This document shows positions 6,102-23,073 of a stretch of 64,000 bases of DNA, piece by piece. Numbering within the stretch: the stretch's first letter is position 1; each line of letters begins with the position of its first letter. Source of the stretch: Polynucleobacter campilacus (lineage in GTDB: Bacteria; Pseudomonadota; Gammaproteobacteria; Burkholderiales; Burkholderiaceae); contig NZ_NGUP01000003.1 in NCBI RefSeq assembly GCF_002206625.1, forward strand, positions 1-64,000, read 5' to 3'. The notes below the pieces were generated by a model. The model saw only the letters and a list, made by a program, of their open reading frames with translations. It searched no databases and had not been told where the DNA came from. A program made the position numbers and the translations under genes.

Positions 6102-8198
6102 ATGTATTGCAAGCGTAATCTGTGGATTTATAAATCACTGTTGTGCATTCCATTTTCTGGATTTTTGTTTGGTATAGCTAGTGCACAGACAGACAGCCTT
6201 GAAATTACTGCCACTGGCTCACAAGAGGCTGCCCAAAGCATCTTGACGCCGACTAAGGTGTTACAAGGTGATGAGCTGTTAAATAAACTTGGGTCGACAC
6301 TGGGTGCAACTCTCGCTAATGAATTGGGCGTCTCTGCTACAGGCTATGGCGCCGGCTCCTCTCGTCCAGTCATTCGCGGTCTTGAGGGGTCTCGTGTCCA
6401 AATTTTGCAAAATGGTCTTTCTGTTGGTGATGTCTCCAATATTTCCCAAGATCATGCTGTTGGTAACAATATGCAAAATGCACACCAAGTGGAAATACTG
6501 CGTGGTGCAGCTGCCCTGCTTTACGGATCAGGCTCGAGCGGCGGCCTAGTCAACGTAGTGAATGATCGTATTTTGACCAATCTTCCCGATAGACCTACGG
6601 GTGCAATCAATACCAGCTATGAAACTGTGAATAATGGCCGTGCTGGATCGGTCGAGGTGGATGGAGGCTTTGGCTCAGTAGCCGTTCATATTGATACAGC
6701 AATTAATAATGCCAACAATTACCGTATCCCTGGGAGCTCAACGCAGTCACAAGGCGAGCCCGCTGGTGGTTGGACTGTTCCACCCGGGGGTAATGGCGGC
6801 AACAACTACACCGGAAAACTTCCCAATAGCTTTAGCAATCAAAACAATTTAGGTGTTGGCGTTTCCTATATCGGACAAAACGGTTACACCGGTGTATCTG
6901 TCGAGCGTCTGAATAATAACTACGGCATTCCGACGCCAGAAGGTGGCTCGATTAATCAGTCACAGAATCGCTACGACTTACAGCATCAAACCCGTGATCC
7001 CTTTGCTGGCTTCTCATCATTCAAATTTAGCGCTGCTAATAGTAATTACAACCATACAGAATTTAATAATGTGGGTGAAGCAGTTGCACTTTGGAAAAAT
7101 ATTGCCAATGAGGCCCGCTTTGAATTGGCCCATAACCCTCTTCTGGGCTGGAAAGGCACCTTTGGCGCTCAAGTTTCCGCTGCTTCTTTAAATGCAACAG
7201 AAGTAGGTACTGGAAGTTATGCCATCGTTCCGCCAACCAAGACTAATTCCAATGCCTTATTTTGGATTGAGGAAGGTAAGTGGAATTCACTTCAAGGGAA
7301 TTTGGGATTGCGCTACAACAATGTTGCCCAAAATCCCAATACATCCACCCTATTGGTGGCACAAGATACGGCAGCGGGAACGCTAACTCCAGGCGTTACT
7401 CTGCAAAATCGGAACTTTAATTTAATGTCTTATTCTGCAGGTGGATTGTGGAGCTTTATGCAAGGTCATGGAGTAGGAGTAGCTTATACCGTCTCACAAC
7501 GGGCACCTAGTGCGCAAGAGCTCTACTCCTATGGCGCTCATGAATCGACTGCCACTTTTGATATTGGTAATCCTAACCTCACCAAAGAGACCTCTCACAA
7601 TCTAGAGCTCAATTTACAAAGAAATATTGGCTTGTTATGTGGTAAAGCAAGTGTTTATGCAAACCGATTCAATAACTACATTTATGGCTATTACACAGGC
7701 AACTCCATAAGCAACGGAGGGCAAGAAGGAGATGGTTTTAATGTGGTCACCTCCCAGCAGGCTGCTGCAACGATCAAGGGTATTGAAGGTGAATTAACCT
7801 ATAACTGGCGTGAACAAGGTCTTGGTGGAAGGGTTTTTGGCGATGCCTCACAAGGTAGTTTTGATGCAGGCGGTAATCTGCCCTTACAACCAGCACCCAG
7901 ACTTGGTGCTGAGCTAGCCCATCAACGCAATGGCTGGTTAACTAATGCTACTTATATCTACAGCTATCAACAGAACCGCCTAGCAAGCTGGGAACAAGGT
8001 CCGGCTCCAAGTTACAACTTACTCAATGCTGGAATATCCTACACAGAGAAAATTCAGCAGGTGAATTGGACTGTGTATCTGAATATGAAGAACTTGCTCA
8101 ATGAACAGATTCGTTATGCGACTACTCCAATGGCAGTAAGACTGTATGCACCACAGCCTGGAAGAAGTTTTATGCTGGGACTGCGGGGAACGTTTTAA
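6102..8198 (+). CDS. TonB-dependent outer-membrane receptor, ZnuD-like (probable metal uptake)
   Basis: A 698-residue protein with a signal peptide ending near SAQ (residue ~29), a plug domain (~40-155) and a C-terminal beta-barrel ending in phenylalanine (SFMLGLRGTF). The plug has VLQGDELLNKLGSTLGATLA, SRPVIRGLEGSRVQILQNG, DHAVGNN and VEILRGAAALLYGSGSSGGLVN, which closely follow the zinc receptor ZnuD. It would import a metal or metal complex with TonB-ExbBD, not seen here. Its exact substrate is uncertain; other small chelates are possible. It follows a small His-rich exported protein and its stop overlaps the convergent PPK2 gene by four bases. Confidence 0.85.
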   Translation: MYCKRNLWIYKSLLCIPFSGFLFGIASAQTDSLEITATGSQEAAQSILTPTKVLQGDELLNKLGSTLGATLANELGVSATGYGAGSSRPVIRGLEGSRVQILQNGLSVGDVSNISQDHAVGNNMQNAHQVEILRGAAALLYGSGSSGGLVNVVNDRILTNLPDRPTGAINTSYETVNNGRAGSVEVDGGFGSVAVHIDTAINNANNYRIPGSSTQSQGEPAGGWTVPPGGNGGNNYTGKLPNSFSNQNNLGVGVSYIGQNGYTGVSVERLNNNYGIPTPEGGSINQSQNRYDLQHQTRDPFAGFSSFKFSAANSNYNHTEFNNVGEAVALWKNIANEARFELAHNPLLGWKGTFGAQVSAASLNATEVGTGSYAIVPPTKTNSNALFWIEEGKWNSLQGNLGLRYNNVAQNPNTSTLLVAQDTAAGTLTPGVTLQNRNFNLMSYSAGGLWSFMQGHGVGVAYTVSQRAPSAQELYSYGAHESTATFDIGNPNLTKETSHNLELNLQRNIGLLCGKASVYANRFNNYIYGYYTGNSISNGGQEGDGFNVVTSQQAAATIKGIEGELTYNWREQGLGGRVFGDASQGSFDAGGNLPLQPAPRLGAELAHQRNGWLTNATYIYSYQQNRLASWEQGPAPSYNLLNAGISYTEKIQQVNWTVYLNMKNLLNEQIRYATTPMAVRLYAPQPGRSFMLGLRGTF

Positions 8199-9100
8199 TA
8201 GAGATCCGGAACGTACATCTCTGGCGGTACAGGGCCACGTAAGTAATCTGGATTATGAACACGGGCAGGCAGTTTAATCACCGGATGGTCTATTTCTTTA
8301 TAGGGAATTTGGGCCAATAAGTGGCTGATACAGTTCAGACGTGCTTTTTTCTTATCATTCGCTGCTACAACCCACCAAGGTGCCTCAGGTATATGAGTAC
8401 GCTCTAACATCGTCTCTTTGGCTTTAGTGTATGCCTCCCACAAGCGTCGAGCTTCTAGGTCCATTGGACTGAGCTTCCACTGCTTTAAGGGATCATGAAT
8501 ACGCATCATGAAGCGGCTGTACTGCTCATCATCAGAAATCGAGAACCAATACTTAATTAAGATAATTCCAGAGCTGATCATCATTCGCTCTAAATCCGGA
8601 ACCGTTCTAAGAAACTCTTCGTATTCTTTCTTGGTACAAAATCCCATGACCTTTTCAACGCCGGCACGGTTGTACCAACTACGATCAAATAAAGCGATCT
8701 CGCCACCAGCAGGAAGTTGTGAAATATAGCGCTGAAAATACCACTGCGTTCTTTCGCGCTCATTCGGCGCTGGTAATGCAACTACTTTACAAACTCGTGG
8801 ATTTAAACGCTGAGCAATGCGCTTAATAGCGCCGCCCTTACCTGCAGAATCGCGGCCTTCAAATAAGATGGCCACTTTCATTTTATTGGCGACAACCCAA
8901 TCCTGGAGTTTTACAAGTTCACCCTGCAGCCGAAATAGTTCTTTAAAGTAAACATTACGTGGTATTGAAGAGCCCTCTTCCCCATCATGAGCAAGGCGAT
9001 CATCGTCAAGCTCCATCTCAAGCTCTTCATCCATGCTATCGAGAATTTCTTCTCGAGCACGGCGATACCACTCGTCCATCTCTTTATGCTTTGATGTCAT
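8195..9100 (-). CDS. ppk2: Polyphosphate kinase 2 (PPK2 family)
   Basis: A 301-residue protein with a Walker A loop GRDSAGKGG (residues ~103-111), the PPK2 motif LFDRSWYNRAGVE (Walker B and lid arginine) and the conserved PWWVVAANDKKKARLN near the C-terminus. PPK2 enzymes move phosphate between polyphosphate and nucleoside di- or triphosphates, so they link polyphosphate stores to NTP pools. The first ~60 residues are acidic and variable. The gene lies in a phosphate-related neighbourhood, but I found no Pho box upstream. The start at 9100 lacks a clear ribosome site; the ATG seven codons on is possible. Confidence 0.9.
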   Translation of the reverse strand: MTSKHKEMDEWYRRAREEILDSMDEELEMELDDDRLAHDGEEGSSIPRNVYFKELFRLQGELVKLQDWVVANKMKVAILFEGRDSAGKGGAIKRIAQRLNPRVCKVVALPAPNERERTQWYFQRYISQLPAGGEIALFDRSWYNRAGVEKVMGFCTKKEYEEFLRTVPDLERMMISSGIILIKYWFSISDDEQYSRFMMRIHDPLKQWKLSPMDLEARRLWEAYTKAKETMLERTHIPEAPWWVVAANDKKKARLNCISHLLAQIPYKEIDHPVIKLPARVHNPDYLRGPVPPEMYVPDLY

Positions 9101-9166: not shown

Positions 9167-9955
9167 CTAATTACAGTGTTTTGCAAGATATTGGGCAATG
9201 TGCTCTTGGCTATACAAAGCAAGCATTTTTCGATCAACGGGTAACTCTGGAGTGGCTTTAATAGGTGCAAAAATGGCTAATTCCACCCTTAACCTACGGT
9301 TTTTTAATATGCTGGCCATAGATCCGATCAAACCCATGTCTCCGATAAAAGCTGGAACCTCGGAATGTTGGCCAGTATATCGATCAAAATAAGCTAGCGC
9401 CATCGCACATACAGGCACCTCCGATACCGCTGCAGCCTCAAATAAATTAGGCTTAAAAAGCTGTACGCCTTTACCTATCGTTGAGGTACCTTCAGGAAAA
9501 ATACAAATGGATTGCGTTTTTAGTATTGCAGCTACGCCATCAACTACCTGCCTTGCATGCCTAGTACTATCTCTTTTGATAAATACAGTACCCAATTGCT
9601 TTGCCATCCATCCAAAAATTGGCCAACTCGCTACCTCAGACTTTGCTACGAATCGAATCGGCTTAAATGCATTAATAGCATGAATGTCCAACCAGGACAC
9701 ATGATTTGCAGCGAGTAAATAAGATGACTGTGGAAGTAAGTTGGCATGATTAACGTGCAACTGAACACCGAAGATCTTTAACAAGCGTTTTGACCATCTT
9801 TGAATATGATCATTTTTTGAGCTTGCACTTAAAAATGGGAACAACACCAGTAGCGTGATGACACCTCTTAATACATGTAGCCAGACTAATAGCCAAAGCG
9901 CTATGTAAATAAAAAATGGGGTATTAATATTTGAGGGTGATTTTCTGGTGGTCAT
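9167..9955 (-). CDS. 1-acyl-sn-glycerol-3-phosphate acyltransferase-like protein (PlsC/OlsA family)
   Basis: A 262-residue membrane-associated acyltransferase. The N-terminus is hydrophobic (residues ~12-45). The catalytic HX4D motif is NHVSWLD and the substrate motif FPEGTST. Family members acylate lysophosphatidate, or as OlsA acylate lyso-ornithine lipid. It is divergent from the PlcP-like gene across a 103-bp spacer with four Pho half-sites, and an OlsB-like gene lies 2.4 kb away, so an OlsA role is attractive. Housekeeping PlsC remains equally compatible with the sequence. Confidence 0.85.
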   Translation of the reverse strand: MTTRKSPSNINTPFFIYIALWLLVWLHVLRGVITLLVLFPFLSASSKNDHIQRWSKRLLKIFGVQLHVNHANLLPQSSYLLAANHVSWLDIHAINAFKPIRFVAKSEVASWPIFGWMAKQLGTVFIKRDSTRHARQVVDGVAAILKTQSICIFPEGTSTIGKGVQLFKPNLFEAAAVSEVPVCAMALAYFDRYTGQHSEVPAFIGDMGLIGSMASILKNRRLRVELAIFAPIKATPELPVDRKMLALYSQEHIAQYLAKHCN

Positions 9956-9996
9956 AAATGCTAATTTTATGGAATATGCTAAATCATATTCGCATA

Positions 9997-10034
9997 GTCA
10001 TAAAAGTGTCTTGAAACTGTCATGAAGCTTTCAC
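9997..10034 (+). promoter_or_regulatory. Double Pho box upstream of the lipid-remodelling genes
   Basis: Four half-sites start exactly 11 bases apart: GTCAT (9997), GTCTT (10008), GTCAT (10019) and TTCAC (10030). PhoB dimers bind pairs of such half-sites, so this is room for two dimers. CTGTCATGAAGCTTTCAC (10017-10034) closely follows the Pho-box consensus. The array ends 25 bases before the start codon of the PlcP-like gene and points toward it. Confidence 0.8.
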
Positions 10035-10058
10035 AGTGTATCGGCTTAATACTGATTC

Positions 10059-10868
10059 ATGATGCACTACAGAGCCATTTGGATTTCTGACGTACACCTG
10101 GGAACATCAGGGTGTCAGGCAAACTACCTTCTGGATTTCTTAAAGCACAATGAAGCCGACAAGTTCTATCTAGTAGGTGACATTATCGACGGCTGGAGAC
10201 TCAAGAAGTCATTCTACTGGCCCCAAGCTCATAACGATGTGGTTCAAAAGCTTTTACGCAAGGCGCGTAAGGGTGCTGAGGTAATTTACGTTCCTGGCAA
10301 TCATGATGAAAGTGCCCGGCAGTTTTTTGGCCTCTCCTTTGGTGATGTCAAAGTGGTTGAGGAATGTATTCATACGACCTTAGATGGCAAAAAGCTGTGG
10401 GTTACCCATGGTGACTTATTTGATGGGGTCATGCAATATGCCAAATGGCTTGCCTACGTTGGCGACACCCTCTACTCTTTCATTCTGTATGTTAATCGCT
10501 ACTTCAATATGTTGCGAGTCAAGATGGGCTTGCAATATTGGTCACTGTCTCAATACCTAAAACACCAAGTCAAAAATGCGGTGAGCTATATCGCTGACTT
10601 TGAGCACATTATGGCCAGAGAAGCTCGCCTACGTGGTTGTGATGGCGTCGTTTGTGGTCATATTCATAAAGCCGAGATCCGTGAAATCGATGGCCTGCTC
10701 TACTGCAATGATGGTGATTGGGTTGAGAGTCTTAGCGCTCTCGTTGAAACCCAAACCGGCGAACTCAAACTGATCTATTGGACTCATATCAAAGGTGATC
10801 CTGTAGAAGCTCCAGAACTGTCTTTCCAAACTGCTGTTGCATCAATTCTCAAAGAGGCTGCACTATGA
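10059..10868 (+). CDS. plcP: PlcP-like metallophosphoesterase (phospholipid-degrading, phosphate starvation)
   Basis: A 269-residue calcineurin-like phosphoesterase. Metal-binding motifs are SDVHLG (D11, H13), GDIIDGW (D41), GNHDE (N81-H82), THGD and GHIH. The stretch CQANYLLDFLKHNEADKFYL followed by YWPQAHNDVVQKLLRKARKG is close to PlcP of rhizobia and marine bacteria, which removes the headgroup from phospholipids to give diacylglycerol and reuse the phosphate. Automated annotation usually calls this LpxH. The Pho boxes upstream and the Agt-like glycosyltransferase overlapping by four bases (ATGA) support PlcP. No signal peptide: cytoplasmic face of the membrane. Confidence 0.8.
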   Translation: MMHYRAIWISDVHLGTSGCQANYLLDFLKHNEADKFYLVGDIIDGWRLKKSFYWPQAHNDVVQKLLRKARKGAEVIYVPGNHDESARQFFGLSFGDVKVVEECIHTTLDGKKLWVTHGDLFDGVMQYAKWLAYVGDTLYSFILYVNRYFNMLRVKMGLQYWSLSQYLKHQVKNAVSYIADFEHIMAREARLRGCDGVVCGHIHKAEIREIDGLLYCNDGDWVESLSALVETQTGELKLIYWTHIKGDPVEAPELSFQTAVASILKEAAL

Positions 10869-11894
10869 AAATTATGATCATTACGGACGCATGGGACCCA
10901 CAGGTCAATGGCGTTGTACGCACCCTGAAACAAACTAGCGCTGAATTAACTAGCATGGGTCATGAAGTAGAAATGATTACGCCTAATGGCTTTAAATCGA
11001 TTCCCTGCCCGACTTATCCAGATATTGCTCTCTCACTATTTCCAGGTAAAGAGGTAGCTCGTCGCATTAAATCATTTGCTCCAGATGCCATGCATATTGC
11101 TACTGAAGGGCCTTTAGGCTTATCTGCGCGCTCATATGCAGTCAAGAACAATCTTCCTTTCTCTACCGCCTATCACACCCGCTTTCCGGAATATGTCAAA
11201 GCCCGTACAGGTATACCACTTTCTATTACCTATGCGTTCATTCGCTGGTTTCATGGCCCATCCATGGCAGTCATGGCCCCAACGATTGTCGTTAAGGATG
11301 ATTTAGAAAAGTATGGTCTAAATAATGTTGTCCTCTGGTCTAGAGGTGTTGATCTGGATATATTTAAGATGCAGGAATCTAAGACTCTCAACACAGCCCA
11401 TCCTATCTTTTTATACGTAGGTCGCGTCGCCATTGAAAAGAACATCAATGCCTTTTTTGGAAATTGATTTACCTGGTTCAAAATGGGTAGTGGGTGATGG
11501 CCCCGCCATGGCAGGAATTAAAGAAAAATATCCTGATATCAACTATCTCGGAGTGTTACAACAACATGAGTTAGCTAAGGTTTATGCAGCGGCTGATGTA
11601 TTCGTGTTTCCAAGCAAGACTGATACTTTTGGCCTAGTTCTTCTTGAAGCAATGGCTTGCGGCACACCGGTGGCTGCTTACCCGGTAACTGGCCCAATTG
11701 ACGTATTAGGGGACTCCCCTGCTGGCGCTATGAATGAGGATTTGCGGGAAGCCTGTATTGCCGCATTAAAGATTCCTCGTGAAGTAGCTAGAGCCCATGC
11801 TGAGAAATTTTCCTGGAGGGCGGCTTCTGAACAATTCTTGCATCATCTCAAGCCAGTTCCCTCAACTGAAGTTCATCTAACCGCCTTAGCCTAA
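10865..11894 (+). pseudogene. agt: Agt-like glycolipid glycosyltransferase, interrupted by a one-base frameshift
   Basis: Two frames together make one GT4-type glycosyltransferase of ~343 codons. The first (10865-11467) begins MKIMIITDAWDPQVNGVVRTL and runs to YVGRVAIEKNINAF; the second resumes with LEIDLPGSKWVVGDGPA and includes FPSKTDTFGLVLLEAMACGTPVAAY. The join falls at six Ts (11453-11458), where five would keep the frame. Agt-type enzymes add sugars to diacylglycerol released by PlcP, giving phosphorus-free membrane lipids. The frameshift would remove the donor-binding half. It may be a real mutation, a homopolymer sequencing error or a phase-variable tract. The start overlaps the plcP stop. 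Confidence 0.8.
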
Positions 11895-11905
11895 GAAAGA
11901 CTCGG

Positions 11906-12310
11906 TTGAATACTAAATATCACATAGACCAAAACCCTCACAAAGGCAATCGAGGGTTAACAAGGGCTTGGCATGCTGCCAAAAACTCTTGGTGTGGATT
12001 GGTGTATGCCTTTTTAGAAGAAAGTGCATTTAGGCAAGAACTCTGTCTATTTTTACTACTAACGCCCCTTGCTCTCTTTATGCCCATTAGCTATCTAGAC
12101 AAGGCTCTCTTAATTTCATCGCTGATCATGGTCTTAGTGGTGGAATTACTCAATTCCAGTGTTGAGGCTGCTATTGATCGCATCTCCTTTGAGCACCATG
12201 ATCTATCGAAAAGAGCGAAGGATTTTGGCTCAGCAGCAGTGATGTTAACCCTGTTAATAGCCCTTCTAATGTGGTCTGCCTTATGCATACCACTTGTCTT
12301 CAAATTGTAA
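11906..12310 (+). CDS. dgkA: Diacylglycerol kinase
   Basis: A 134-residue small membrane kinase with three transmembrane helices (about residues 45-63, 68-86 and 108-130). The family signature is ELLNSSVEAAIDRI (residues ~80-93). It phosphorylates diacylglycerol to phosphatidate. Placed 11 bases after the glycosyltransferase it would recycle the diacylglycerol that PlcP produces. The start is a TTG at 11906, without a strong ribosome site, so coupling to the upstream gene is likely. Confidence 0.93.
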   Translation: MNTKYHIDQNPHKGNRGLTRAWHAAKNSWCGLVYAFLEESAFRQELCLFLLLTPLALFMPISYLDKALLISSLIMVLVVELLNSSVEAAIDRISFEHHDLSKRAKDFGSAAVMLTLLIALLMWSALCIPLVFKL

Positions 12311-12370
12311 TAAACCCCTTCTACGATTAAATATATCTATTTATTTAAGTAACTCACTAAGGCTCCCCCT

Positions 12371-13294
12371 ATGTCAGATATTCCAAACCCAATTGCCGCC
12401 TTTGAAATTTTTTCCTTCAAGAAAGAGGGAAAATTTTCTGCTCTTAGACCCAATGCAATTAAAAAACTTTCCAAGAAGCTGACTAAAAAGCTTTTTGGTA
12501 AAAAATTTGCTACTAAAGCCCGCGCGCAATTAGCCGCTGAAGTGACGCCTACAGTCAGCCCCAGTGTCAAATCCAAAAGACCAGCTTTTACGATTGAATG
12601 GGCAAGCTCTGCTAGTGAAATAAAAGAAGCGCAAAGATTGCGTTATAAGGTATTTGCTGAAGAAATGGGCGCAAATCTCTCTCAAAATGCCGAGGGTTTA
12701 GACGTAGATGAATTTGATGATTATTGCGATCATTTAATAATTCGCGATCAAGATACTCTTAAGGTAGTCGGCACCTATCGCGTACTTCCGCCCCACAAAG
12801 CACAAGAAATTGGCCGCCTGTACTCTGATGCTGAATTTGATTTATCCCGCCTAGATCACCTTCGTCCTAAGCTAGTTGAATTGGGTAGATCTTGTGTACA
12901 CCAGGATTATCGTTCAGGGGCAGTGATTATGGCCTTATGGAGTGGCCTAGCCCAATACATGCAAAAGCATGGTTACGAGATCATGCTCGGTTGTGCCAGC
13001 ATCCCTATGGCTGATGGCGGTCACTTTGCGGCCAGTCTCTATAACTCGCTAGGTAATGATCAAATGGCTCCGGTTGAGCTCCATGCCTTCCCTAAATTAG
13101 CTTTGCCATTGGATAAGCTCAATGGTGGATTGGAAGTAGAAGCTCCTCCATTAATTAAGGGCTACCTAAAGCTAGGAGCCAAGATTTGTAGTGCACCTGC
13201 TTGGGATCCTGATTTCAATACCGCAGACTTGCTGACAATGTTGCGCTTATCGGAAATCAATCCTCGTTATGCAAAGCATTTCCTGGGACTGTAA
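12371..13294 (+). CDS. olsB: OlsB-like L-ornithine N-acyltransferase (GNAT fold)
   Basis: A 307-residue protein with a variable basic N-terminus (~1-70) and a GNAT-related acyltransferase domain (~75-260) containing RLRYKVFAEEMGA, VGTYRVLPP, ELGRSCVHQDYRSG and GCASIPMADGGHFAASLY. These are the landmarks of OlsB, which transfers a 3-hydroxyacyl group from ACP to ornithine to make lyso-ornithine lipid, a phosphorus-free membrane lipid. Start at 12371 with AAGG about 9 bases upstream. Neighbouring plcP, agt and dgkA make a lipid-replacement role likely. A different amine acceptor cannot be excluded. Confidence 0.82.
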   Translation: MSDIPNPIAAFEIFSFKKEGKFSALRPNAIKKLSKKLTKKLFGKKFATKARAQLAAEVTPTVSPSVKSKRPAFTIEWASSASEIKEAQRLRYKVFAEEMGANLSQNAEGLDVDEFDDYCDHLIIRDQDTLKVVGTYRVLPPHKAQEIGRLYSDAEFDLSRLDHLRPKLVELGRSCVHQDYRSGAVIMALWSGLAQYMQKHGYEIMLGCASIPMADGGHFAASLYNSLGNDQMAPVELHAFPKLALPLDKLNGGLEVEAPPLIKGYLKLGAKICSAPAWDPDFNTADLLTMLRLSEINPRYAKHFLGL

Positions 13295-13305
13295 TTCTCA
13301 GTTTT

Positions 13306-14868
13306 TTATTTCAGATTAAGTTCGTAAGAGCGGCCGATTCGATTCCATTCGGCTGCTTCTTTCAGAAGACTGAATTCTGTTAAAGGATGTATTTGAGCCC
13401 ACTCCTTAGGGATGCTGACTTGGTAAGCACCGTCCTCATCAGAGACCTTCACCTTTGGTAAATCTTCATCACTTCTGCCACGACAAAGTACTTGGGCTAA
13501 GCGGAGACAAAATAACATACGCCAATCATGAAAACCTGAATTGTTTGCAAGTTTTCCTAATTTACCTGTATGACCTATCAAAAGTGCAGCTAAGCGAGCC
13601 TGGTCGTTTTTAGAAAAGCCAGGCATATCAGCGTTGCCAGCAATATACGCTGAATGCTTATGGTAGCTGTTATGTGAAATCGATAAGCCGATTTCATGAA
13701 GGCTAGCAGCCCATTGCAATAGTGCAATGTTATCTGCTCTACTTTCTGTTTTAGGCTTAGGTAATTGCTGTAAAAATTCAGAAGCTAGTTTACCCACGCG
13801 TGTGGCTTGCTCCCGATCAGCAGAGTAGCGTTGGATGAATTGCTCAACCGTAACATAACGCATGTCATGGTGTTGTGAGCGCCCTAAGAGGTCATAGAGC
13901 ACACCAGTGCGTAAGGCGGCATCAGTAACTTCCATCTCCTCAATGCCAAGCTCATCAAATACTGCCAACATGATGGCTAAGCCCCCAGGCCAGACAGATC
14001 TTCTGTCATCTTTTAAGCCTAACAATTCAACCTGACTAATATGTTCGTATGTCAGTAGATGTTTTTTCATCGCCCGCAAACCATCACGAGTAATTAAACC
14101 GCCAGAGGCGTTTACACGACCCATGGTTAAGCCATCGGTATGGCCATTAAAGTCATTTGCTGAAATCAGTTCAGCAAGCGCTCTAGCAGTCCCAGATGAC
14201 CCAATAGCTTGATTCCAACCACTCTTGAGATAAGCTCCTGAGATAACTTGGATCTCACGTCTAGCGGCTAGTTCAGCTTCCTTAAATGAATGGGCATCGA
14301 TATTGCCCTTGGGGAAAAAGCGGATACTGTGTGAAACGCAGCCAATATAAAGGCTTTCCATTAACTTTGGTTCGTAGCCCTTACCGATAATGAATTCTGT
14401 CGAACCGCCGCCAATATCAACCACTAATCGATTGCCTTGAGCTGCCTGAACTTCATGTGCAGCACCGATATAAATTAAGCGCGCCTCCTCAACACCAGCA
14501 ATGACCTCGATTGGGAAGCCTAAAGCTTGCTGAGCATCATGGATAAATTGCTGGGCATTCTTAGCTACCCGCAAGGTATTAGTAGCAACCGCGCGCACAT
14601 TGGCTGGATCAAATCCCCGAATGCGCTCTCCAAAGCGCCTAATAGCGGCTAAACCGCGTTGATAGGCATCGTTCCCTAAGAGTTTATTTTCTGTTAAGCC
14701 AGCGGCTAAACGCACTGAATCACGCAGAGTATCAATCGGACGAAGTTGGGTACCTGACGGCGTATTGGTAGCCTGAGCAACCAACATCCGAAAACTATTG
14801 GAGCCTAAATCTACCGCTGCGACTAGCTCGTCCGGGGAGGATACAGAGTCGTCAGAATGAATTTCCAA
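13306..14868 (-). CDS. ppx: Exopolyphosphatase (Ppx/GppA family)
   Basis: A 520-residue protein of the actin-like ATPase superfamily. The N-terminal half has AAVDLGSNSFRMLVA (residues ~16-30) and VVDIGGGSTEFIIG (~145-158), the two phosphate-binding loops; the C-terminal ~200 residues form the HD-like helical domain. It removes terminal phosphate from polyphosphate, and relatives hydrolyse pppGpp. The full length with the C-terminal domain favours Ppx over short GppA forms. Three Pho-type half-sites at 11-bp spacing lie 44 bases upstream. It converges on olsB with only 11 bases between. Confidence 0.92.
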   Translation of the reverse strand: MEIHSDDSVSSPDELVAAVDLGSNSFRMLVAQATNTPSGTQLRPIDTLRDSVRLAAGLTENKLLGNDAYQRGLAAIRRFGERIRGFDPANVRAVATNTLRVAKNAQQFIHDAQQALGFPIEVIAGVEEARLIYIGAAHEVQAAQGNRLVVDIGGGSTEFIIGKGYEPKLMESLYIGCVSHSIRFFPKGNIDAHSFKEAELAARREIQVISGAYLKSGWNQAIGSSGTARALAELISANDFNGHTDGLTMGRVNASGGLITRDGLRAMKKHLLTYEHISQVELLGLKDDRRSVWPGGLAIMLAVFDELGIEEMEVTDAALRTGVLYDLLGRSQHHDMRYVTVEQFIQRYSADREQATRVGKLASEFLQQLPKPKTESRADNIALLQWAASLHEIGLSISHNSYHKHSAYIAGNADMPGFSKNDQARLAALLIGHTGKLGKLANNSGFHDWRMLFCLRLAQVLCRGRSDEDLPKVKVSDEDGAYQVSIPKEWAQIHPLTEFSLLKEAAEWNRIGRSYELNLK

Positions 14869-14911
14869 AATATTCCCTCAAAATGCCTGTGCCAATCAAA
14901 TATGTCTATTT

Positions 14912-14939
14912 TATGAAAAAACCATGACATATTGATGAA
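14912..14939 (-). promoter_or_regulatory. Probable Pho box upstream of ppx
   Basis: On the minus strand TTCAT, GTCAT and TTCAT start at 14938, 14927 and 14916, exactly 11 bases apart. The central pair reads TTTCATCAATATGTCATG. The middle half-site matches the consensus; the outer ones have one substitution each. The array ends 44 bases before the ppx ATG. Confidence 0.6.
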
Positions 14940-14966
14940 AATACACGCTAGTCTAATGGGAAAAGG

Positions 14967-15179
14967 CTATGTTGCTAGATTTTGTTCTGCGCTAGCGCAG
15001 TCAAAGTCTCCAAAGCTGCAAAAAATACAGCAATCGCCTGATTTGGGCTTCAAGATATTGCTACAAGAGCGACAGCGGTACAAATGCATAGAAGACCCTC
15101 TAAGGACCTCTAGCGTCTCGGCCGCCTGACAATGCGGACAAGTAATAGTAGATTGCTGTTTTTCTTCAGAGTAGTTCAC
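14967..15179 (-). CDS. Small zinc-ribbon-like protein with a GDCC-x-FC motif
   Basis: A 70-residue protein with two CxxC pairs (CPHCQ at residues ~14-18, CRSCS at ~36-40) and then GDCCIFCSFGDFDC. The motif GDCC(V/I)FCS(Y/F)G is typical of a family of small proteins found near mercury and other metal genes (GDCCVxC-domain proteins). The last residues (AEQNLAT) depart from the usual CPPxQ ending. Metal binding is likely but its job is not known. It lies between ppx and phoA on the same strand. Confidence 0.7.
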   Translation of the reverse strand: MNYSEEKQQSTITCPHCQAAETLEVLRGSSMHLYRCRSCSNILKPKSGDCCIFCSFGDFDCASAEQNLAT

Positions 15180-15237
15180 AGTCCTATATTGAACTGGAGA
15201 TATTTCAGAAATATGTCAGATCAGAATTAGATGCAAA

Positions 15238-16983
15238 TTATTTAGAGCCAAGCCCAAGTGTTTGAACCATTACTTTAAAGACCTCCGTATTGTCCATAAA
15301 CCCTTTGAACTTTTCTGATCCAGGGCCTATGGCATTGAGAACAGCATCATCGGCAGTATGCACACCGACCTCTTGATGTGATGGCAAATTGCCATTCATA
15401 TGAATAGCGTCCTCTTGAAGCTGGAGATATTTCGGGTTTGCGACATACTTACCACCCTCGCCCTTCACTGCTGGTACAAACGTGCCATCAAGCTTAGGAT
15501 GTAGGGTCTCATAATGATCTGGGTAATTGCCATAGAAAAAGGCTAGGCGCTTACTGACATCAATTTCGCTTGGGTAGCCTTGAACATCTGCTCTAGGATA
15601 GTTAGGAAATCCTGCGGAAGCATAAACACCGACCTTTTCACGCAAAGGGCCAGGCCTATCATCATGCACTACGCCGCTAATAGAGCCACTATGAGTGTGA
15701 TCAGGCGTCACAATGATAAGAGTGTCAGGATGGGTCTTTGCAAAGTCCTTAGCAATTTGCACTGCATTGCTGAGCATGATGGTGTCAAATGCAGCCCTCT
15801 CCCAATCCAAGGGGTGATTGAACTTATCAATTAAAGCAGCTTCAACCATCAAGAAAAATCCATTAGGATTTCTAGAGAGGACATCAATCGCTGACTGAGT
15901 CATCTCGGTTAAATCAGGCTGATTTGGATATTGAGAAACAGTATTCTTTTTAAGAAATAAGCGATCTAGTGAGCCGTCCATATTATCAGGATGAAATACA
16001 CCAAATAATTTCTTCGTATTTTTGTTTTCGGCGGCAGCAATCAGCTCTTGCTTAGTAAAGGCTACTTGATAGCCATCAGTTTTAAAGGTTTCGACTAGAT
16101 TATTCTCATCCTTACGCTTTGAACCATTGCTTGATTTTGGATAGAAATACGCCGAACCACCACCTAAGATAACCTCTGCCTTACTTGCTAGCAATTGATC
16201 GGCAATATACTGTTTATCAGCCCTTCGTCTCGTATGAGCCACCATGGCACCAGGTGTGGCATCTTGCAATTCAGCATCGGATACGATACCTACTGACATT
16301 TTGGTTTTGCGCTTGAGAAGCTCAGTAATGGTCTCTACTTTAGGGTGCGATAAGTTATCGCTAGCACGGGAAACATAAACCCCCATCGCGTTCACCGCTG
16401 TTTTATGCCCAGTTGTATAGGCACTCATGGAATTGGCAGAATCTGTGATCAAAGAATCAGAACCTGAGGTACCAATCATTGCAGTACTTGGCATGTCGTC
16501 AAACGCTAGCCTACCCTGGTATTTGCCTTCTGTAATTCCCTTGGAAAGCACTCGCGCGGCTGTCCTATTGGCAATCGTCATACCATCGCCAACAAACAAA
16601 ATCACATTCTTCACTCTGCGTGGCCCGCTAGCATAAACTTCCCAAGTCACTTGTAACTCTTCTTGTGATGCGCGAGCTAGCACTTGATATTTTCCTGCTT
16701 TTGGGAGTTGAACATCTCGGTAGATGAGAGAGCTACCCTTTCCATTTTCATTGGGGATAAATTCTGATTTGGTAGTAATGATTTTATTAGCAGGTATTCC
16801 ATTAACGGTAATAGCAACCTCATGAGGATTGACAACCTGATTGAACTCTACTTTGATATCAAATTTAGAACCTGCCAAAATTTCGGCTTTATCGATTGGG
16901 TAGATTGCTTGTGCATGCGCAACGCTAGTGAAGACAATCGTGAATGCGCATATAGAGCTTTTGATAAGGCAGGAAATATTCAT
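15238..16983 (-). CDS. phoA: Alkaline phosphatase (PhoA family), periplasmic
   Basis: A 581-residue protein with a signal peptide ending near AHA (residue ~25). Residues ~30-120 form an extra beta-rich domain; the phosphatase domain begins at VILFVGDGM. The nucleophile serine is in TDSANSMSAYTTGHKT, metal ligands in DGM and TPDHTHSG, and the late histidine in GVHTADDAVLNAIGPGSEKF. It releases phosphate from organic phosphates in the periplasm. A strong Pho box lies 51-68 bases upstream of the ATG. The N-terminal extra domain makes it longer than E. coli PhoA (~470 residues). Confidence 0.9.
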   Translation of the reverse strand: MNISCLIKSSICAFTIVFTSVAHAQAIYPIDKAEILAGSKFDIKVEFNQVVNPHEVAITVNGIPANKIITTKSEFIPNENGKGSSLIYRDVQLPKAGKYQVLARASQEELQVTWEVYASGPRRVKNVILFVGDGMTIANRTAARVLSKGITEGKYQGRLAFDDMPSTAMIGTSGSDSLITDSANSMSAYTTGHKTAVNAMGVYVSRASDNLSHPKVETITELLKRKTKMSVGIVSDAELQDATPGAMVAHTRRRADKQYIADQLLASKAEVILGGGSAYFYPKSSNGSKRKDENNLVETFKTDGYQVAFTKQELIAAAENKNTKKLFGVFHPDNMDGSLDRLFLKKNTVSQYPNQPDLTEMTQSAIDVLSRNPNGFFLMVEAALIDKFNHPLDWERAAFDTIMLSNAVQIAKDFAKTHPDTLIIVTPDHTHSGSISGVVHDDRPGPLREKVGVYASAGFPNYPRADVQGYPSEIDVSKRLAFFYGNYPDHYETLHPKLDGTFVPAVKGEGGKYVANPKYLQLQEDAIHMNGNLPSHQEVGVHTADDAVLNAIGPGSEKFKGFMDNTEVFKVMVQTLGLGSK

Positions 16984-17033
16984 GGGGATAGAAAAAAGAT
17001 TGATAAGAATAAATTACACTATCTACAATCAAG

Positions 17034-17051
17034 ATGACATCTTTATGACAG
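17034..17051 (-). promoter_or_regulatory. Pho box upstream of phoA
   Basis: The minus strand reads CTGTCATAAAGATGTCAT: two half-sites (GTCAT) 11 bases apart and a near-perfect match to the Pho-box consensus. It lies about 50 bases upstream of the alkaline phosphatase ATG at 16983 and points toward it. Confidence 0.85.
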
Positions 17052-17064
17052 CCTCTTTGCATAC

Positions 17065-18507
17065 CTAAAGCGCTATTTTCTTCTTGGCCGCTTTCAATCT
17101 ACCGCTTTTCACAGCCTTACAAAATAACTCAAAATCCTGCTGATTTTGCTTTGCATAAGACTTGGCAAAGGAATATAGGGCCTCATTAAGCTCGGCAGAT
17201 TGACCGCAATAGCCTGCGATCATGGCAGCATCGCCAGAACGCGCATGACCTAAAGCCAATGCCCAACCGAATAACTTTGCGTAGTCAGGGAAGGTCTTTA
17301 AGGTGACGCCTCCAGTACCAACGCCAATACCACCTTTCATATCGCGTAATTGGCGCAGATAAAACCCCTGACTCTTATTGATATCGTATTGCACTGTGCC
17401 GTAATTCAAAAAGATATCTGGTGCACCTTGAAGCAACCTCTGGCCAGCCACTACACGCCTGCCCATATCTCGATATATAGATTCCCCAAGATACGGTGTC
17501 AAGACCGATTTTTGAGCCTCTTTATATTGTAGGAATAAAGGATCTTGTTCGCTATCACCTTCAAAATAGAGGACCATACAATTTGTTCCGACACTACCAA
17601 CACCCACCACTTTACGGGCGTAATCTTTTAATGAGTAGCGCTGAAATAAGATTTGGCGATCTGCTAGCAAAGTACTGGAATAGTTTAATAAAGCCTTATC
17701 GACTAGTGAGCCAAAAGGGACACCATAGGCATCCTTTTTAAAATGCTCAATTAATGGAGGCTTGTTAATAATTTTTCGATTCTTACCAACCAAGGTTGTC
17801 AGGCTTTGCAGAACCTGAATATTTCCCTGTCCTTTAGTCTCCTTAAGGTAAGCATCTAGCTTTTTTTGATGCTCCTTACTAAAGTGCTTACGAATATCAT
17901 TTTCACCGATAAACTCTTGCGCTAAATCTAAATAGGGCATTTTGGCGTATTGTGCAATACGTTTTTGATACTCAGAAGCAATGCGGTACACCAGTTTTTT
18001 TCCTAGAGCCCTATCACCCCCTAAGCTCTCTGATGCAATAAGGGCGCTTGCTACTAAACGTTTAATGTCCCACTCCCAGCTACCCGGTAAGGTTTCATCA
18101 AAATCATTGATTCCAAATACCAATCGATGTTCAGCCGTTCCAAATAAACCAAAGTTAGAAACGTGCATATCGCCGCAAAGCTGGACAGTAATATTGCTTG
18201 TGGGCTGATTGGCTAAATCCTGAGCCATGATGGCGGCCCCACCCCGATAAAACGAAAAAGGTGACTGCAACATCCGCTCATATCGAATAGGAATCAGCAA
18301 TGCGATTCGCTGCTTAGCTTGCGCTTCCAATATGCTAACCGGATCAATTCGGTCCTTAGGAGGCGTATACAGGCCCTGATCAGAAAAGCTCACTACCTTA
18401 CGTAAGGCCTTTCCATCAGCCATACGCTTTTTGATACTAGGCCGTGGATCTTTGAACGACTCTACAGACCTAAGGACGGCAAATTGGGGTTTCTTCTCTA
18501 GAGGCAT
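17065..18507 (-). CDS. DUF2252-family protein
   Basis: A 480-residue soluble protein with the DUF2252 landmarks: RYERMLQSPFSFYRGGAA (residues ~70-90), LCGDMHVSNFGLFGT (~110-124), FGINDFDETLPGSWEWDIKRL (~130-150) and, late, YAKLFGWALALGHARSGDA. The HGDxHxxN/D-x-D pattern resembles aminoglycoside-phosphotransferase-like kinases, and the family is sometimes treated as a kinase-fold group of unknown substrate. It sits between phoA and arsC on the same strand. No Pho box is visible upstream. Function unknown. Confidence 0.85.
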   Translation of the reverse strand: MPLEKKPQFAVLRSVESFKDPRPSIKKRMADGKALRKVVSFSDQGLYTPPKDRIDPVSILEAQAKQRIALLIPIRYERMLQSPFSFYRGGAAIMAQDLANQPTSNITVQLCGDMHVSNFGLFGTAEHRLVFGINDFDETLPGSWEWDIKRLVASALIASESLGGDRALGKKLVYRIASEYQKRIAQYAKMPYLDLAQEFIGENDIRKHFSKEHQKKLDAYLKETKGQGNIQVLQSLTTLVGKNRKIINKPPLIEHFKKDAYGVPFGSLVDKALLNYSSTLLADRQILFQRYSLKDYARKVVGVGSVGTNCMVLYFEGDSEQDPLFLQYKEAQKSVLTPYLGESIYRDMGRRVVAGQRLLQGAPDIFLNYGTVQYDINKSQGFYLRQLRDMKGGIGVGTGGVTLKTFPDYAKLFGWALALGHARSGDAAMIAGYCGQSAELNEALYSFAKSYAKQNQQDFELFCKAVKSGRLKAAKKKIAL

Positions 18508-18572
18508 GGGCTATCAGGGTAATTAACATACCCGTCCATGTTAATACCAGTAGAGAGGAAAAAGACGGTCAG

Positions 18573-19013
18573 CTAGGAATTGAGGTAATTGAGCTTCTTT
18601 TGAATACTTGATGGCAGCGTTGAGAACCAAACCCCATCATCCCCTACCGCTGGCAGTATTTGGCCATATTCAATCATTTGACCAGGCGTAATTTCATCAA
18701 TATAGGCCCAAATTTGATGCCCAGCTAAGCAAGTGGTGGTTTGAATCGCTATTTCAAGTTCAACTAATAATTGTTTTTTTATTTGTTCGCTTCTACCAAT
18801 CCGAATTTGACCATTCAGAAAAATATGGGGTTCATTCAGTAGAACGCCGCCAATGAAGCAATCATGCATATCCAATGACTTGAATATCACCTGCGCAAAG
18901 TAGGCTTCTGCACCGGTAATATCGGCATGTATCTTGGTAATTGCCTGTGCGAGGGTAAATTTTTGATGTGTTGTGAGGGATAAGCCAGCAAAATATACGC
19001 TATAGGTTGCCAT
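18573..19013 (-). CDS. Tautomerase-superfamily protein lacking the catalytic N-terminal proline
   Basis: A protein of about 146 residues with the outline of trimeric tautomerases: Q-AITKIHADITGAEAYFAQVIF (residues ~22-45), GGVLLNEPHIFLNGQIRIGRS and WAYIDEITPGQMIEYGQILPAVGDDGVWF. Active members begin Met-Pro, with proline as the catalytic base. This one begins Met-Ala-Thr-Tyr. The ATG at 19013 is preferred; a GTG one codon earlier overlaps the arsC stop. Overlap/adjacency with arsC suggests one operon. A non-enzymatic role or changed chemistry is possible. Confidence 0.65.
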   Translation of the reverse strand: MATYSVYFAGLSLTTHQKFTLAQAITKIHADITGAEAYFAQVIFKSLDMHDCFIGGVLLNEPHIFLNGQIRIGRSEQIKKQLLVELEIAIQTTTCLAGHQIWAYIDEITPGQMIEYGQILPAVGDDGVWFSTLPSSIQKKLNYLNS

Positions 19014-19015
19014 CA

Positions 19016-19534
19016 CTATTCCGATAAGTTGTATTGCTGATTAAGCTTATGGTGAATTGAATGGAGCTCATTCTTTATTTGCAATCGATCAAGCATATCG
19101 AGCGGTAGATCAAGTAGTAATTCAATACGATTACGCAATTCCATTTCTACCTTTCTGAAAGCCTCCCAAAGAGCTTGCTCATTAATTGCATCATTTTCTG
19201 GGTCAATAAAACCCCAGTGGGCAGTCGTGGGATGGCCAGGCCAATATGGGCATTCTTCACCCGCCGCAGAATCGCACACAGTGATTATGAAATCCATATG
19301 TGGCGCATCCTCTCTTCCGAACTCATCCCATGTCTTGCTCCTGAGGAGCTCGAGTGGATAACCCATTTCTCTGGCAATCTTTAAAGTAATTGGGTGAACA
19401 TATTGCTTTGGTTCTGATCCAGCTGAATGCCCAATTAAACGACCATGGCTCAAGGTAGTTGCCAGTGCCTCACCTAAAATTGATCGGGCTGAATTGCCGG
19501 TGCAAAGAAACAAGATTTTGTATGGTTGATTCAT
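19016..19534 (-). CDS. arsC: Arsenate reductase, low-molecular-weight phosphatase type
   Basis: A 172-residue protein with the P-loop CTGNSARS (residues ~11-18) and the later CDSAAGEECPYWPGHP containing the further redox cysteines, and HWGFIDP. Thioredoxin-linked ArsC reduces arsenate to arsenite; related proteins are tyrosine phosphatases, but the GNSARS loop and the CPYWPGHP segment are ArsC-like. No ars pump or regulator is adjacent. Placement among phosphate genes makes sense because arsenate enters through phosphate transporters. The C-terminal ~30 residues are an extra helical tail. Confidence 0.85.
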   Translation of the reverse strand: MNQPYKILFLCTGNSARSILGEALATTLSHGRLIGHSAGSEPKQYVHPITLKIAREMGYPLELLRSKTWDEFGREDAPHMDFIITVCDSAAGEECPYWPGHPTTAHWGFIDPENDAINEQALWEAFRKVEMELRNRIELLLDLPLDMLDRLQIKNELHSIHHKLNQQYNLSE

Positions 19535-19563
19535 AGCTGAAGATATGGGAGAAGGCGTATGAA

Positions 19564-19740
19564 TTAAATAAGCTCATCAAGACGCAATGAAAACTTTTTA
19601 TCAACAACAAATTGGTTACTGTTGCGATCTAACAAATAAAGATTTGCTTGCGGGTTAATTTCTTTTGGCTCTATAGCAGTAGTACGCTCAACTTCATTAC
19701 GGAAAACATCAGATAAGTATTTAGTGAGACTTGTATTCAT
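19564..19740 (-). CDS. Small hypothetical protein (58 aa)
   Basis: An open frame of 58 codons from an ATG at 19740: MNTSLTKYLSDVFRNEVER, then ... INPQANLYLLDRNSNQF and a final LRLDELI. The composition is soluble, charged and plausible for a real protein. The ribosome site is weak (an A-rich stretch). It lies 29 bases upstream of arsC on the same strand, so it could be the first gene of that operon. No family recognised. Confidence 0.45.
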   Translation of the reverse strand: MNTSLTKYLSDVFRNEVERTTAIEPKEINPQANLYLLDRNSNQFVVDKKFSLRLDELI

Positions 19741-19821
19741 GAAGTTTTTCTTTTAAATAAAGAGCCAATACCAACATCCTAAGATTTATTTATTTCAGTT
19801 TTATTAAGAAAGGGAATAAAA

Positions 19822-19843
19822 AAACCCAGCGCAAACTGGGTTT
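19822..19843 (-). terminator. Rho-independent terminator after the 30-codon gene
   Basis: AAACCCAG (19822-19829) and CTGGGTTT (19836-19843) pair perfectly over eight bases. On the minus strand the hairpin is followed by a run of Ts (seven As at 19818-19824 on the plus strand). It lies ~100 bases downstream of the small gene at 19946-20038, implying that a short minus-strand transcript ends here. Confidence 0.75.
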
Positions 19844-19945
19844 AAAAGGAGGTTAATATAGACGCATGTTAGTCAGCAATCGACTGACATTCAAAATATA
19901 GCAATCCTTTATTACAAACTAGTGACTAAGCCTAATCAATTTGAG

Positions 19946-20038
19946 TTAGCTGCCAAGACGGTGTCGCGCAAATCGGTTCACATATGCTAGTCGCGCTTCG
20001 TTCCATGCCTGCCATAAACGTAAAATAAATTTTTTCAT
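19946..20038 (-). CDS. Candidate 30-residue small protein under Pho control
   Basis: An ATG at 20038 opens a 30-codon frame: MKKFILRLWQAWNEARLAYV followed by NRFARHRLGS. It is basic and could form one amphipathic helix with a Trp/Leu face, suggesting membrane association. AAGGA stands 6 bases before the ATG, a good ribosome site. Three Pho half-sites lie ~90-115 bases upstream and a clear terminator ~100 bases downstream, so promoter-like site, ribosome site, frame and terminator are all in register on one strand. I do not recognise the family. A regulatory RNA with no coding role is the alternative. Confidence 0.55.
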   Translation of the reverse strand: MKKFILRLWQAWNEARLAYVNRFARHRLGS

Positions 20039-20127
20039 ATTGCATCCTTGTGGTGAAAGATAAATAGAGGCCCCACTGTTTTGCAGCAAGACCCTCGAAA
20101 CAACAAAATCTATTGTTCATCACGTCA

Positions 20128-20154
20128 ATGACAGCGTGAAGACATTTTTATGAC
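20128..20154 (-). promoter_or_regulatory. Pho-box array upstream of the 30-codon gene
   Basis: On the minus strand GTCAT, GTCTT and GTCAT start at 20154, 20143 and 20132, exactly 11 bases apart, the same order of half-sites as in front of plcP. The array points left toward the small gene. The divergent mgtC-like gene begins at 20215 on the other strand. Confidence 0.65.
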
Positions 20155-20214
20155 TAGATGGTGTAGCTGGGATACACTAAATTCTCTATAAGTCCTTTCT
20201 TGAAGGAAATCAGC

Positions 20215-20691: not shown

Positions 20692-20777
20692 ATAGCCTTA
20701 AAACCACTAAAAAAGCATGTTTTGTCATATTTGTTTGTTAGGATGGTAATTCCCTTCATAAATAATAAACTGATGCC

Positions 20778-20978
20778 ATGAGTAACTACAAATACGAAGA
20801 TGCAGTGAAACAGCTTCAAGAAAGCGGTGCTATTGGCCTGGTGGACTTAAAAAGTCTGCCTCACGAAGATCTTGTAGAGCTTCTTGAAGAAATCAAAGTT
20901 TGGTGCTTGTATGCAGGCGGCAAAACTGAAAAGCTCCCTAAGGAATCCAAAAAGAAAAAGAAAAAGAAAAAGGATTAA
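20778..20978 (+). CDS. Small hypothetical protein with a polylysine tail (66 aa)
   Basis: A 66-residue soluble protein: a helical acidic body (YEDAVKQLQESGAIGLVDLK ... HEDLVELLEEIKVW) and a tail of nine or more lysines before a final aspartate. The body reads as a folded helical domain; the tail could bind nucleic acid or polyphosphate. The tail is encoded by AAG/AAA runs, which slip easily, so its length may vary. It is convergent with phoR, 18 bases away. Function unknown. Confidence 0.55.
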   Translation: MSNYKYEDAVKQLQESGAIGLVDLKSLPHEDLVELLEEIKVWCLYAGGKTEKLPKESKKKKKKKKD

Positions 20979-22359: not shown

Positions 22360-23073
22360 CTAATTGTTGCTTGGAGTCTTGGTAATACGATAGCCGCTGC
22401 CCCGAACTGTCTCGATAAATCGGTCGCAGTCTACTGGGGTTAATGCTGCCCTGAGGCGCTTAATATGGACGTCAACAGTTCGCTCTTCAATATAGACTTC
22501 ATTACCCCAAACCTTATCTAGTAAATTAGTACGAGAATGAACGCGTTCTGGGTTAGCCATAAAGAATTGCAGAAGTCTATATTCTGTGGGACCCAAAGAA
22601 ACTGGTTTAAGCTCAGTATTAGGCCATTGCGCCAAAACTCTATGCGAGCTAGGATCTAGCTTTAGTGGGCCGATTGTGAGTGGGCCCGTGTCTTCAAGCG
22701 GGGTTTGCCTGCGCAACAATGCCCTCACCCTAGCAATTAATTCCTTAGGTGAAAAAGGCTTAGTCACATAATCATCTGCACCAGAATCTAAGCCCAAGAC
22801 CTTATCGGACTCCTCGCTTTTCGCGGTAAGCATCAGAATCGGCAAACCTCTTGTCCGATCATTAGCCCGTAACTCTTTAGCAAATTGCACACCAGACTTT
22901 CCTGGCAACATCCAATCTAGTATCACTAGGCTTGGTAACTTTTCTTTCATCATCGCAAGCGCAAGATCAGTTTGCATGGCCTTCTCAACCTCATAGCCTG
23001 CATGCGTTAAATTAATTGCAATCAACTCTGCAATGGATGGCTCATCTTCAACGATTAGTATGTGGTGAGTCAT
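22360..23073 (-). CDS. phoB: Phosphate-regulon response regulator PhoB
   Basis: A 237-residue OmpR-type regulator: receiver domain (1-120) with the acidic pocket (E10, D11), phosphoacceptor D53 in VILDWMLPG and the switch lysine in MLTAKSEE; C-terminal winged helix (~140-230) ending GSGYRITK. PhoB binds the 11-bp-spaced half-sites found upstream of several genes in this window. It lies 14 bases after phoU. Confidence 0.96.
   Translation of the reverse strand: MTHHILIVEDEPSIAELIAINLTHAGYEVEKAMQTDLALAMMKEKLPSLVILDWMLPGKSGVQFAKELRANDRTRGLPILMLTAKSEESDKVLGLDSGADDYVTKPFSPKELIARVRALLRRQTPLEDTGPLTIGPLKLDPSSHRVLAQWPNTELKPVSLGPTEYRLLQFFMANPERVHSRTNLLDKVWGNEVYIEERTVDVHIKRLRAALTPVDCDRFIETVRGSGYRITKTPSNN

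Follow-up and report, generated by a model that had tools for sequence, protein, structure and literature searches.

A probable Pho-controlled membrane-remodelling locus in Polynucleobacter uniting plcP, agt and dgkA with ornithine-lipid genes

Results

Organisation of the locus

The window studied here comprises the first 64,000 nucleotides (64 kb) of contig NZ_NGUP01000003.1 of Polynucleobacter campilacus, whose genome of 1.98 Mb is assembled in 9 contigs. Four genes follow one another on its forward strand: plcP (10059..10868), for an intracellular phospholipase C-type metallophosphoesterase recognised by homology, tree and motif; agt (10865..11894), for a diacylglycerol glycosyltransferase with GT4 domains; dgkA (11906..12310), for a prokaryotic diacylglycerol kinase (DAGK_prokar) whose start codon is unsure; and olsB (12371..13294), for an ornithine N-acyltransferase-like protein of the OlsB-type GNAT family. 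They stand behind an array of four Pho-like half-sites (9996..10034, forward strand), on the other side of which an olsA-like O-acyltransferase gene diverges on the reverse strand (9167..9955). The initial annotation of this DNA had described the four genes on one strand behind the array, and their order and orientation are exact; its gene list left out the divergent olsA, a terminator-like hairpin after olsB and a split in agt. Both routes to phosphorus-free lipids are present, as it had claimed, and they are complete once olsA is counted. The combination is not peculiar to this genome: it recurs across the genus samples, and its plcP-agt-dgkA core is found again in the family sample.

The phosphoesterase groups with PlcP and not with LpxH

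On the curated LpxH model the window phosphoesterase scored 37 bits and did not pass the cut-off of 190.35, while a separate LpxH in the same genome (C3:117209-117886) reached 240 bits against a cut-off of 190; an over-threshold LpxH was found in 53 of the 60 family genomes searched. In a maximum-likelihood tree of 48 proteins (29 PlcP-type rows and 19 LpxH rows) the window protein lies with those of Sinorhizobium meliloti, Mitsuaria, Sphingomonas and other PlcP-type proteins, apart from all 19 LpxH with a support of 100/100, and the tree program warned of long branches between the two groups. The motif GNHD occurs in 29/29 PlcP-type rows whereas LpxH rows have GNRD (19/19), and all seven metal-ligand positions, located by E. 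coli LpxH residue numbers, are kept in every PlcP-type row. The window protein is 50.2% identical over residues 5-247 to an S. meliloti PlcP-type protein which we take to be the studied PlcP (SMc00171); its gene adjoins acyl-homoserine lactone synthase and LuxR genes, as fits SMc00171. A search of solved structures gave LpxH as the only informative matches, the best at 8e-5, so that no PlcP structure helped the identification. The score, the separate LpxH, the tree and the motif together led us to reject LpxH as the identity of this protein. The initial annotation had asked whether the gene might fall among true LpxH in a genome with no other lpxH; it groups with PlcP, and a separate LpxH is encoded elsewhere in the genome, so that the PlcP identity came through this check. 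The expectation that automated annotation would hide the gene as LpxH was also borne out, since 24 of the 32 plasmid records with a relative call it UDP-2,3-diacylglucosamine diphosphatase and the other 8 name nothing. Among plasmids, three Pseudomonas aeruginosa records carry a PlcP-like gene whose product is 55.6% identical to that of the window.

Conservation in the genus and the family

Layout within the genus was read from 23 Polynucleobacter loci, and from 80 named relatives that are the best 80 of 120 PlcP matches, a set biased to close kin in which only loci long enough were counted as testable. By their PlcP, the closest of these to the window are isolates of Polynucleobacter and related metagenome bins, with 96% identity at most. 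The order olsA (reverse), plcP, agt, olsB, ppx (reverse) is found in 23/23 genus loci, with dgkA between agt and olsB in 18 of them, and in the testable named relatives olsA was retained in 79/79, agt, dgkA and olsB in 74/74 each, and ppx, adjoining olsB, in 68/69. The window PlcP has matches in 113 of the 121 genus genomes. Of these, 111 are PlcP-type, some being fragments; the other two, in G027 and G042, are LpxH-grade matches that the tree places in the LpxH clade. Six genus genomes of good quality have no PlcP-type match (G027, G042, G080, G113, G300 and G078), and five of the six also lack olsB, which speaks for a linked fate of the two genes. Both genes are damaged in G017 and G103, and both are missing in the lower-quality G022 and G037. 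G075, which is 56% complete, has no plcP match; in G052 and G102 olsB stands at a contig edge, so that a missing plcP is uninformative there.

Beyond the genus, 174 of 200 family genomes match the window PlcP, a few weakly, and 180 of the 200 have OlsB relatives. Seventeen loci of 11-12 kb from other genera were chosen by hand from 153 matching genomes; they are partly near kin (L089 and L090 are near-identical upstream of plcP) and so do not amount to 17 independent cases. In these, agt follows plcP in 17/17 and dgkA is present in 16/17, and none of olsA, olsB and ppx gave a match of more than 45 bits in the 11-12 kb. From start to start, plcP and olsB are separated by about 2.4 kb or less in the genus loci; in G131, G124 and G129, the three family genomes compared by coordinates, they are 68 kb to 1.07 Mb apart.

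A conserved array of Pho-like half-sites precedes plcP

The array consists of 6-mers at 9996, 10007, 10018 and 10029; the half-sites reported initially, GTCAT at 9997, GTCTT at 10008, GTCAT at 10019 and TTCAC at 10030, are exact in coordinates and in their spacing of 11 bases. A search of both strands of the window for at least three half-sites at 11-base spacing with a match sum of at least 15 returned four arrays, at 9996(+), 14940(-), 20155(-) and 27694(-), against a mean of 0.44 and a maximum of 3 in 100 dinucleotide shuffles, none of which reached four. With a laxer sum of at least 14, four arrays were reached in 1/100 shuffles, and the two four-site arrays of the window (sum at least 18) were equalled in 1/100. 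Pairs of half-sites number 55 in the window where 62.8 are expected, and so show no enrichment; it is the arrays with three or four sites that exceed chance, and the Pho signal lies in the multi-site register. Counting Pho boxes by the pair pattern was dropped as uninformative.

The conservation of the array is stronger evidence than the shuffle statistics. Among the 41 unique genus upstream sequences (PlcP identity of at least 86%, out of 51 unique overall) the half-site cores GTCA, TG.C, TGTCA and.T.CA are invariant. A fixed four-position register before plcP scores at least 16 of 24 in 79/79 testable named loci and at least 18 in 72/79, against 62 and 14, respectively, of 160,000 places drawn at random from this DNA. 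Outside the genus, at least two half-sites were found within 450 bases upstream of plcP in 16 of the 17 loci, as against 6.6% of 3,400 stretches drawn at random from these loci, and a four-site array in 7 of the 17, as against 0.8%. That plcP of the family might lack Pho sites proved wrong: the proteins there have longer N termini, with the arrays 205-352 bases ahead of the start of the match. The conserved sites strongly suggest that the cluster is under Pho control.

Between the array and plcP the conserved element GGCTTAATAC (10043..10052, forward strand) is the probable -10 region of the plcP promoter; in its pattern GGC.TAAT, both GGC and TAAT are kept in at least 90% of the 41 sequences. 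The start codon follows this region at 10059, and the plcP messenger is therefore probably leaderless or nearly so; 4-mers resembling a Shine-Dalgarno sequence precede plcP in 1/41. In the opposite direction a weak promoter-like match, AAGACA-18-TATGAT, faces olsA and overlaps the array (9983..10012, reverse strand), and the search for this pattern found 6 matches against 14.2 expected in shuffles. TTATATT stands 8-11 bases before an ATG opening the olsA-like open reading frame in 34 of 52 unique genus sequences, and in 34/34 of these the next ATG after the motif is the one that opens it; a second, outward-facing promoter is thus likely in these 34 sequences, which represent few independent lineages. 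The motif is absent in the other 18, the window among them. Its distance to the edge of the array is 9 bases in 13 sequences, 28-29 in 16 and 18-27 in 5, and we leave as a suggestion that the array may also serve an olsA promoter. The two main distances differ by roughly two helix turns.

The putative ornithine-lipid genes

The olsB product matches PF13444 with 134 bits, and its best NCBIfam model is OlsB with 185.5 bits (cut-off 350), ahead of OlsF with 63 and GlsB with 30. It is 36% identical to an S. meliloti OlsB-type protein over residues 78-304 and has an N-terminal extension of about 67 residues, family matches beginning mostly near residue 60-73. This extension is lysine-rich in the genus (12371-12570 in the window) and uncovered by most family OlsB matches. 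An intrinsic-terminator-like hairpin followed by T6 (13283..13301, forward strand) lies between olsB and the converging ppx; such sites number 7 in 7 kb against 5.8 in shuffles, and it is the position after olsB, not the count, that is evidence. For the olsA product the best NCBIfam models are those of OlsA, with 125 and 119 bits (cut-off 300), and the PlsC-type TIGR00530 gives 94.5 bits, also below its cut-off. The protein reaches 95 bits to an S. meliloti OlsA-type protein, whose name is not a curated one, against 47 bits to E. coli PlsC and 41 to the PlsC-type protein of its own genome. A tree with long branches sets it nearer OlsA-type than PlsC proteins, with a support of 97/95. A second PF01553 gene stands elsewhere in the genome, and olsA is thus not its sole PlsC-type gene. 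Two outside records touch on these genes. On a plasmid of Microvirga sp. VF16 (L138, 6184-7561) a partial plcP match (residues 4-116) adjoins a converging olsB-like gene, and relatives of plcP, olsA and olsB are found on CP090106.1, whose length is 3.7 Mb and whose label, pSymB, looks wrong.

dgkA and the split agt

The dgkA product passes the PF01219 cut-off with 109 bits against 22.3, and dgkA is the only diacylglycerol kinase gene in the genome.

In this assembly a T run in agt (11453-11458) carries one base too many, which splits the gene into two open reading frames (10865-11467 and 11433-11894); the surplus base is seen against 20/20 alignable relatives out of 23, and in 74/74 testable named loci agt is a single unbroken match. 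In a relative with an intact gene the protein is 342 residues long; it shares 53% identity with the glycosyltransferase adjoining plcP on a Sphingomonas plasmid and only 27% with the neighbour of plcP in Thiodictyon, both of these being recognised by their place beside plcP. The galU gene is intact and would supply UDP-glucose for Agt. The only over-threshold nucleotide-sugar dehydrogenase of the genome (TIGR03026), probably UDP-glucose 6-dehydrogenase (ugd), is broken as well, an A run (G000:C1:554365-554375) being one base longer than in 8 aligned relatives, and it is unbroken in 9/9 relatives searched. The two broken genes belong to one possible pathway. Within the window the agt break is the sole one in the 52.6 kb covered by proteins of G081 and in the 50.6 kb covered by those of G002. 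Applied to control genomes, the same scan found a single break in each of G002 (63.9 kb) and G081 (65 kb), whereas G088 (16 kb) had none. Of a further 400 kb, in which the relative is not collinear, 15.7 kb were covered and showed no break.

Discussion

The homology of the genes, their order and conservation, and the half-sites make it highly probable to us that this is a PhoB-switched membrane-remodelling locus by which phospholipids are replaced by two phosphorus-free lipids; from them we infer that PhoB binds and induces the cluster, what its enzymes do and which lipids result. At low phosphate PhoB, encoded in the same window (22360..23073, reverse strand, over its curated cut-off) and presumed to be the regulator, would bind the four half-sites at 9996-10034 and start transcription of plcP-agt-dgkA-olsB into a probably leaderless or near-leaderless messenger, and perhaps also that of the divergent olsA. 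PlcP would then cut phosphatidylethanolamine or phosphatidylglycerol to diacylglycerol and the phospho-head-group, with Agt glycosylating the diacylglycerol to a phosphorus-free glycolipid and DgkA converting the surplus to phosphatidic acid. OlsB together with OlsA would make ornithine lipid as the second phosphorus-free lipid.

Each of these steps is known in other bacteria, and what appears to be new is the gathering of both phosphorus-free routes, a diacylglycerol kinase and one site array in a single locus. Release of diacylglycerol by PlcP under phosphate stress and its glycosylation by Agt are described in passages of three reports (PMC8528852, PMC9239053, PMC3972451), one of which also assigns ornithine lipid to OlsB and OlsA (PMC3972451). 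The renovation of lipids by PlcP and Agt in S. meliloti, Agrobacterium, SAR11, Pseudomonas aeruginosa and Methylosinus likewise has plcP with an often adjacent agt, Pho-type sites and the same enzyme families (PMC8528852, PMC9239053, PMC3972451, PMC4796936), whereas the Polynucleobacter locus adds dgkA, olsB and the divergent olsA. One section of a survey of marine bacteria distinguishes six types of plcP neighbourhood, with btaAB, agt or other glycosyltransferases and not with ols genes (PMC4796936). Pho-regulated synthesis by OlsB and OlsA resembles the present case in its OlsB- and OlsA-type enzymes and its Pho sites, putative Pho boxes being reported at Burkholderia-group olsB genes in a passage of PMC7814305; the difference lies in the distance from plcP, short in the genus and long in G131, G124 and G129. 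The same enzyme set, PlcP, DagK, OlsA and OlsB, belongs to the Pho regulon of Pseudomonas putida BIRD-1, where according to PMC5082522 phosphate limitation raises all four proteins and a phoBR mutant is without PlcP and OlsAB. There plcP (PPUBIRD1_1390) and olsAB (0974-0975) have distant locus tags, in contrast with the one locus and one array of Polynucleobacter. In the literature searched, which excluded subscription papers, we found no description of the single-locus combination and nothing linking plcP to Polynucleobacter or to Cupriavidus, and for Polynucleobacter together with ornithine lipid the search led to a work on Burkholderia taxonomy; a search of PMC11828411, on phosphate and alternative lipids, gave no passage on plcP, agt or an operon.

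Several observations weigh against the proposed remodelling locus. In records of S. meliloti, Mitsuaria and Roseomonas plcP-type genes have no agt beside them, the family locus L082 shows no half-site pair before plcP, and the window itself has no conserved olsA promoter motif. The OlsA and OlsB models were matched beneath their curated cut-offs, G078 keeps olsB with no plcP match, and G023 has a split plcP and an olsB match without stops. On the same side count the presence of dgkA at another place in all six genus genomes whose cluster is without it, and the frame breaks in agt and the dehydrogenase; these bear on two of the alternatives considered below. A further alternative, that the phosphoesterase is a second LpxH-type or other nucleotide-lipid hydrolase of lipid A metabolism with accidental neighbours, would agree with the label in most plasmid records, with the weak match to the LpxH model and with the structure matches, and LpxH has the calcineurin-like fold family and metal ligands in common with the window PlcP. 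LpxH has its own clade, its GNRD motif and its own over-threshold gene in this genome, however, and the adjacency of agt, kept in all 17 family and all 23 genus loci, would be left as chance; we regard this explanation as very improbable.

A more substantial alternative concerns dgkA, which might be a housekeeping gene with its own promoter that recycles the diacylglycerol of ordinary envelope reactions, the genes being clustered and Pho-controlled all the same. It is the only such kinase in the genome and, where the cluster copy is lacking, is kept elsewhere in 6/6 genus genomes and 1/1 family genome (for G239 the lack was read from coordinates), which fits such a role; against this stand the adjacency of plcP, agt and dgkA in 16 of the 17 family loci and, in P. 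putida, the reported enrichment of DagK along with other lipid-remodelling proteins when phosphate is low (PMC5082522). We hold this to be quite possible, if short of an even chance, and DgkA may as well recycle diacylglycerol in the proposed pathway. If the agt break is real, the agt step would fail in the sequenced strain. That this strain has truly lost the glycolipid arm, with agt and the dehydrogenase as pseudogenes and a locus reduced to PlcP and the ornithine-lipid system, is argued by two genes each with one extra homopolymer base that are unbroken in relatives, and by the absence of any other break where proteins of G081 cover the window (52.6 kb). An additional base at a homopolymer is, however, a typical sequencing error, agt outside the break shows 95-99% identity to a relative and hence no visible decay, and the breaks in G002 and G081 indicate that single breaks are not rare. 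We consider the loss rather unlikely and lean to sequencing error for both breaks, since both are single homopolymer additions and agt is otherwise free of decay.

The distribution is most plainly read as that of a plcP-agt-dgkA unit with Pho sites which predates the genus and to which the ornithine-lipid genes were added in Polynucleobacter, because in the 17 family loci the core usually has Pho-like half-sites but no ols genes within about 12 kb. An extended scheme, put forward tentatively and in our estimate more doubtful than probable, would make the locus a two-way Pho switch with olsA outward and plcP-agt-dgkA-olsB inward. Diacylglycerol would be the branch point that tunes the withdrawal of phosphorus, going to glycolipid through Agt or being rebuilt into phospholipid through DgkA, with ornithine lipid filling the gap. 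A family ancestor would have had the Pho-linked plcP-agt-dgkA core, the genes for ornithine lipid would have come under this array in Polynucleobacter, and the sequenced strain may have given up an acidic glycolipid branch (agt, ugd) and depend on ornithine lipid.

Members of Polynucleobacter are common in lakes, where phosphorus is often scarce. The literature that we found on bacterial lipid replacement deals mostly with marine, soil, plant-associated, methanotroph or clinical bacteria. If the proposed remodelling takes place, the membrane phosphorus content of Polynucleobacter would shift with lake phosphate, and plcP-agt-dgkA in the family sample suggests likewise for other Burkholderiaceae. 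The usual labelling of plcP as a lipid A synthesis gene matters beyond this locus, since it affects counts of lipid-remodelling genes in metagenomes.

Neighbouring genes

The genes on either side also concern phosphate. Converging on olsB is ppx, of the exopolyphosphatase/GppA family (13306..14868, reverse strand), which has its own four-site Pho array (14902-14940, reverse strand). Next to olsA lies ppk2 (8195..9100, reverse strand), for a polyphosphate kinase 2 that exceeds the cut-off of TIGR03707 with 368 bits, and this neighbour adjoins olsA in 15 of the 23 genus loci. PhoR, PhoB, PhoU, PstB, PstA, PstC and PstS are encoded at 20997-27638, each over a curated cut-off, so that the stretch 13306-27694 holds a whole Pho regulon of ppx, phoA, a DUF2252 gene, small genes, phoR, phoB, phoU and pstBACS. 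Further half-site arrays or pairs, all on the reverse strand, stand at 14940 near the start of ppx, at 17034-17061, at 20155, and at 27694 near the start of pstS.

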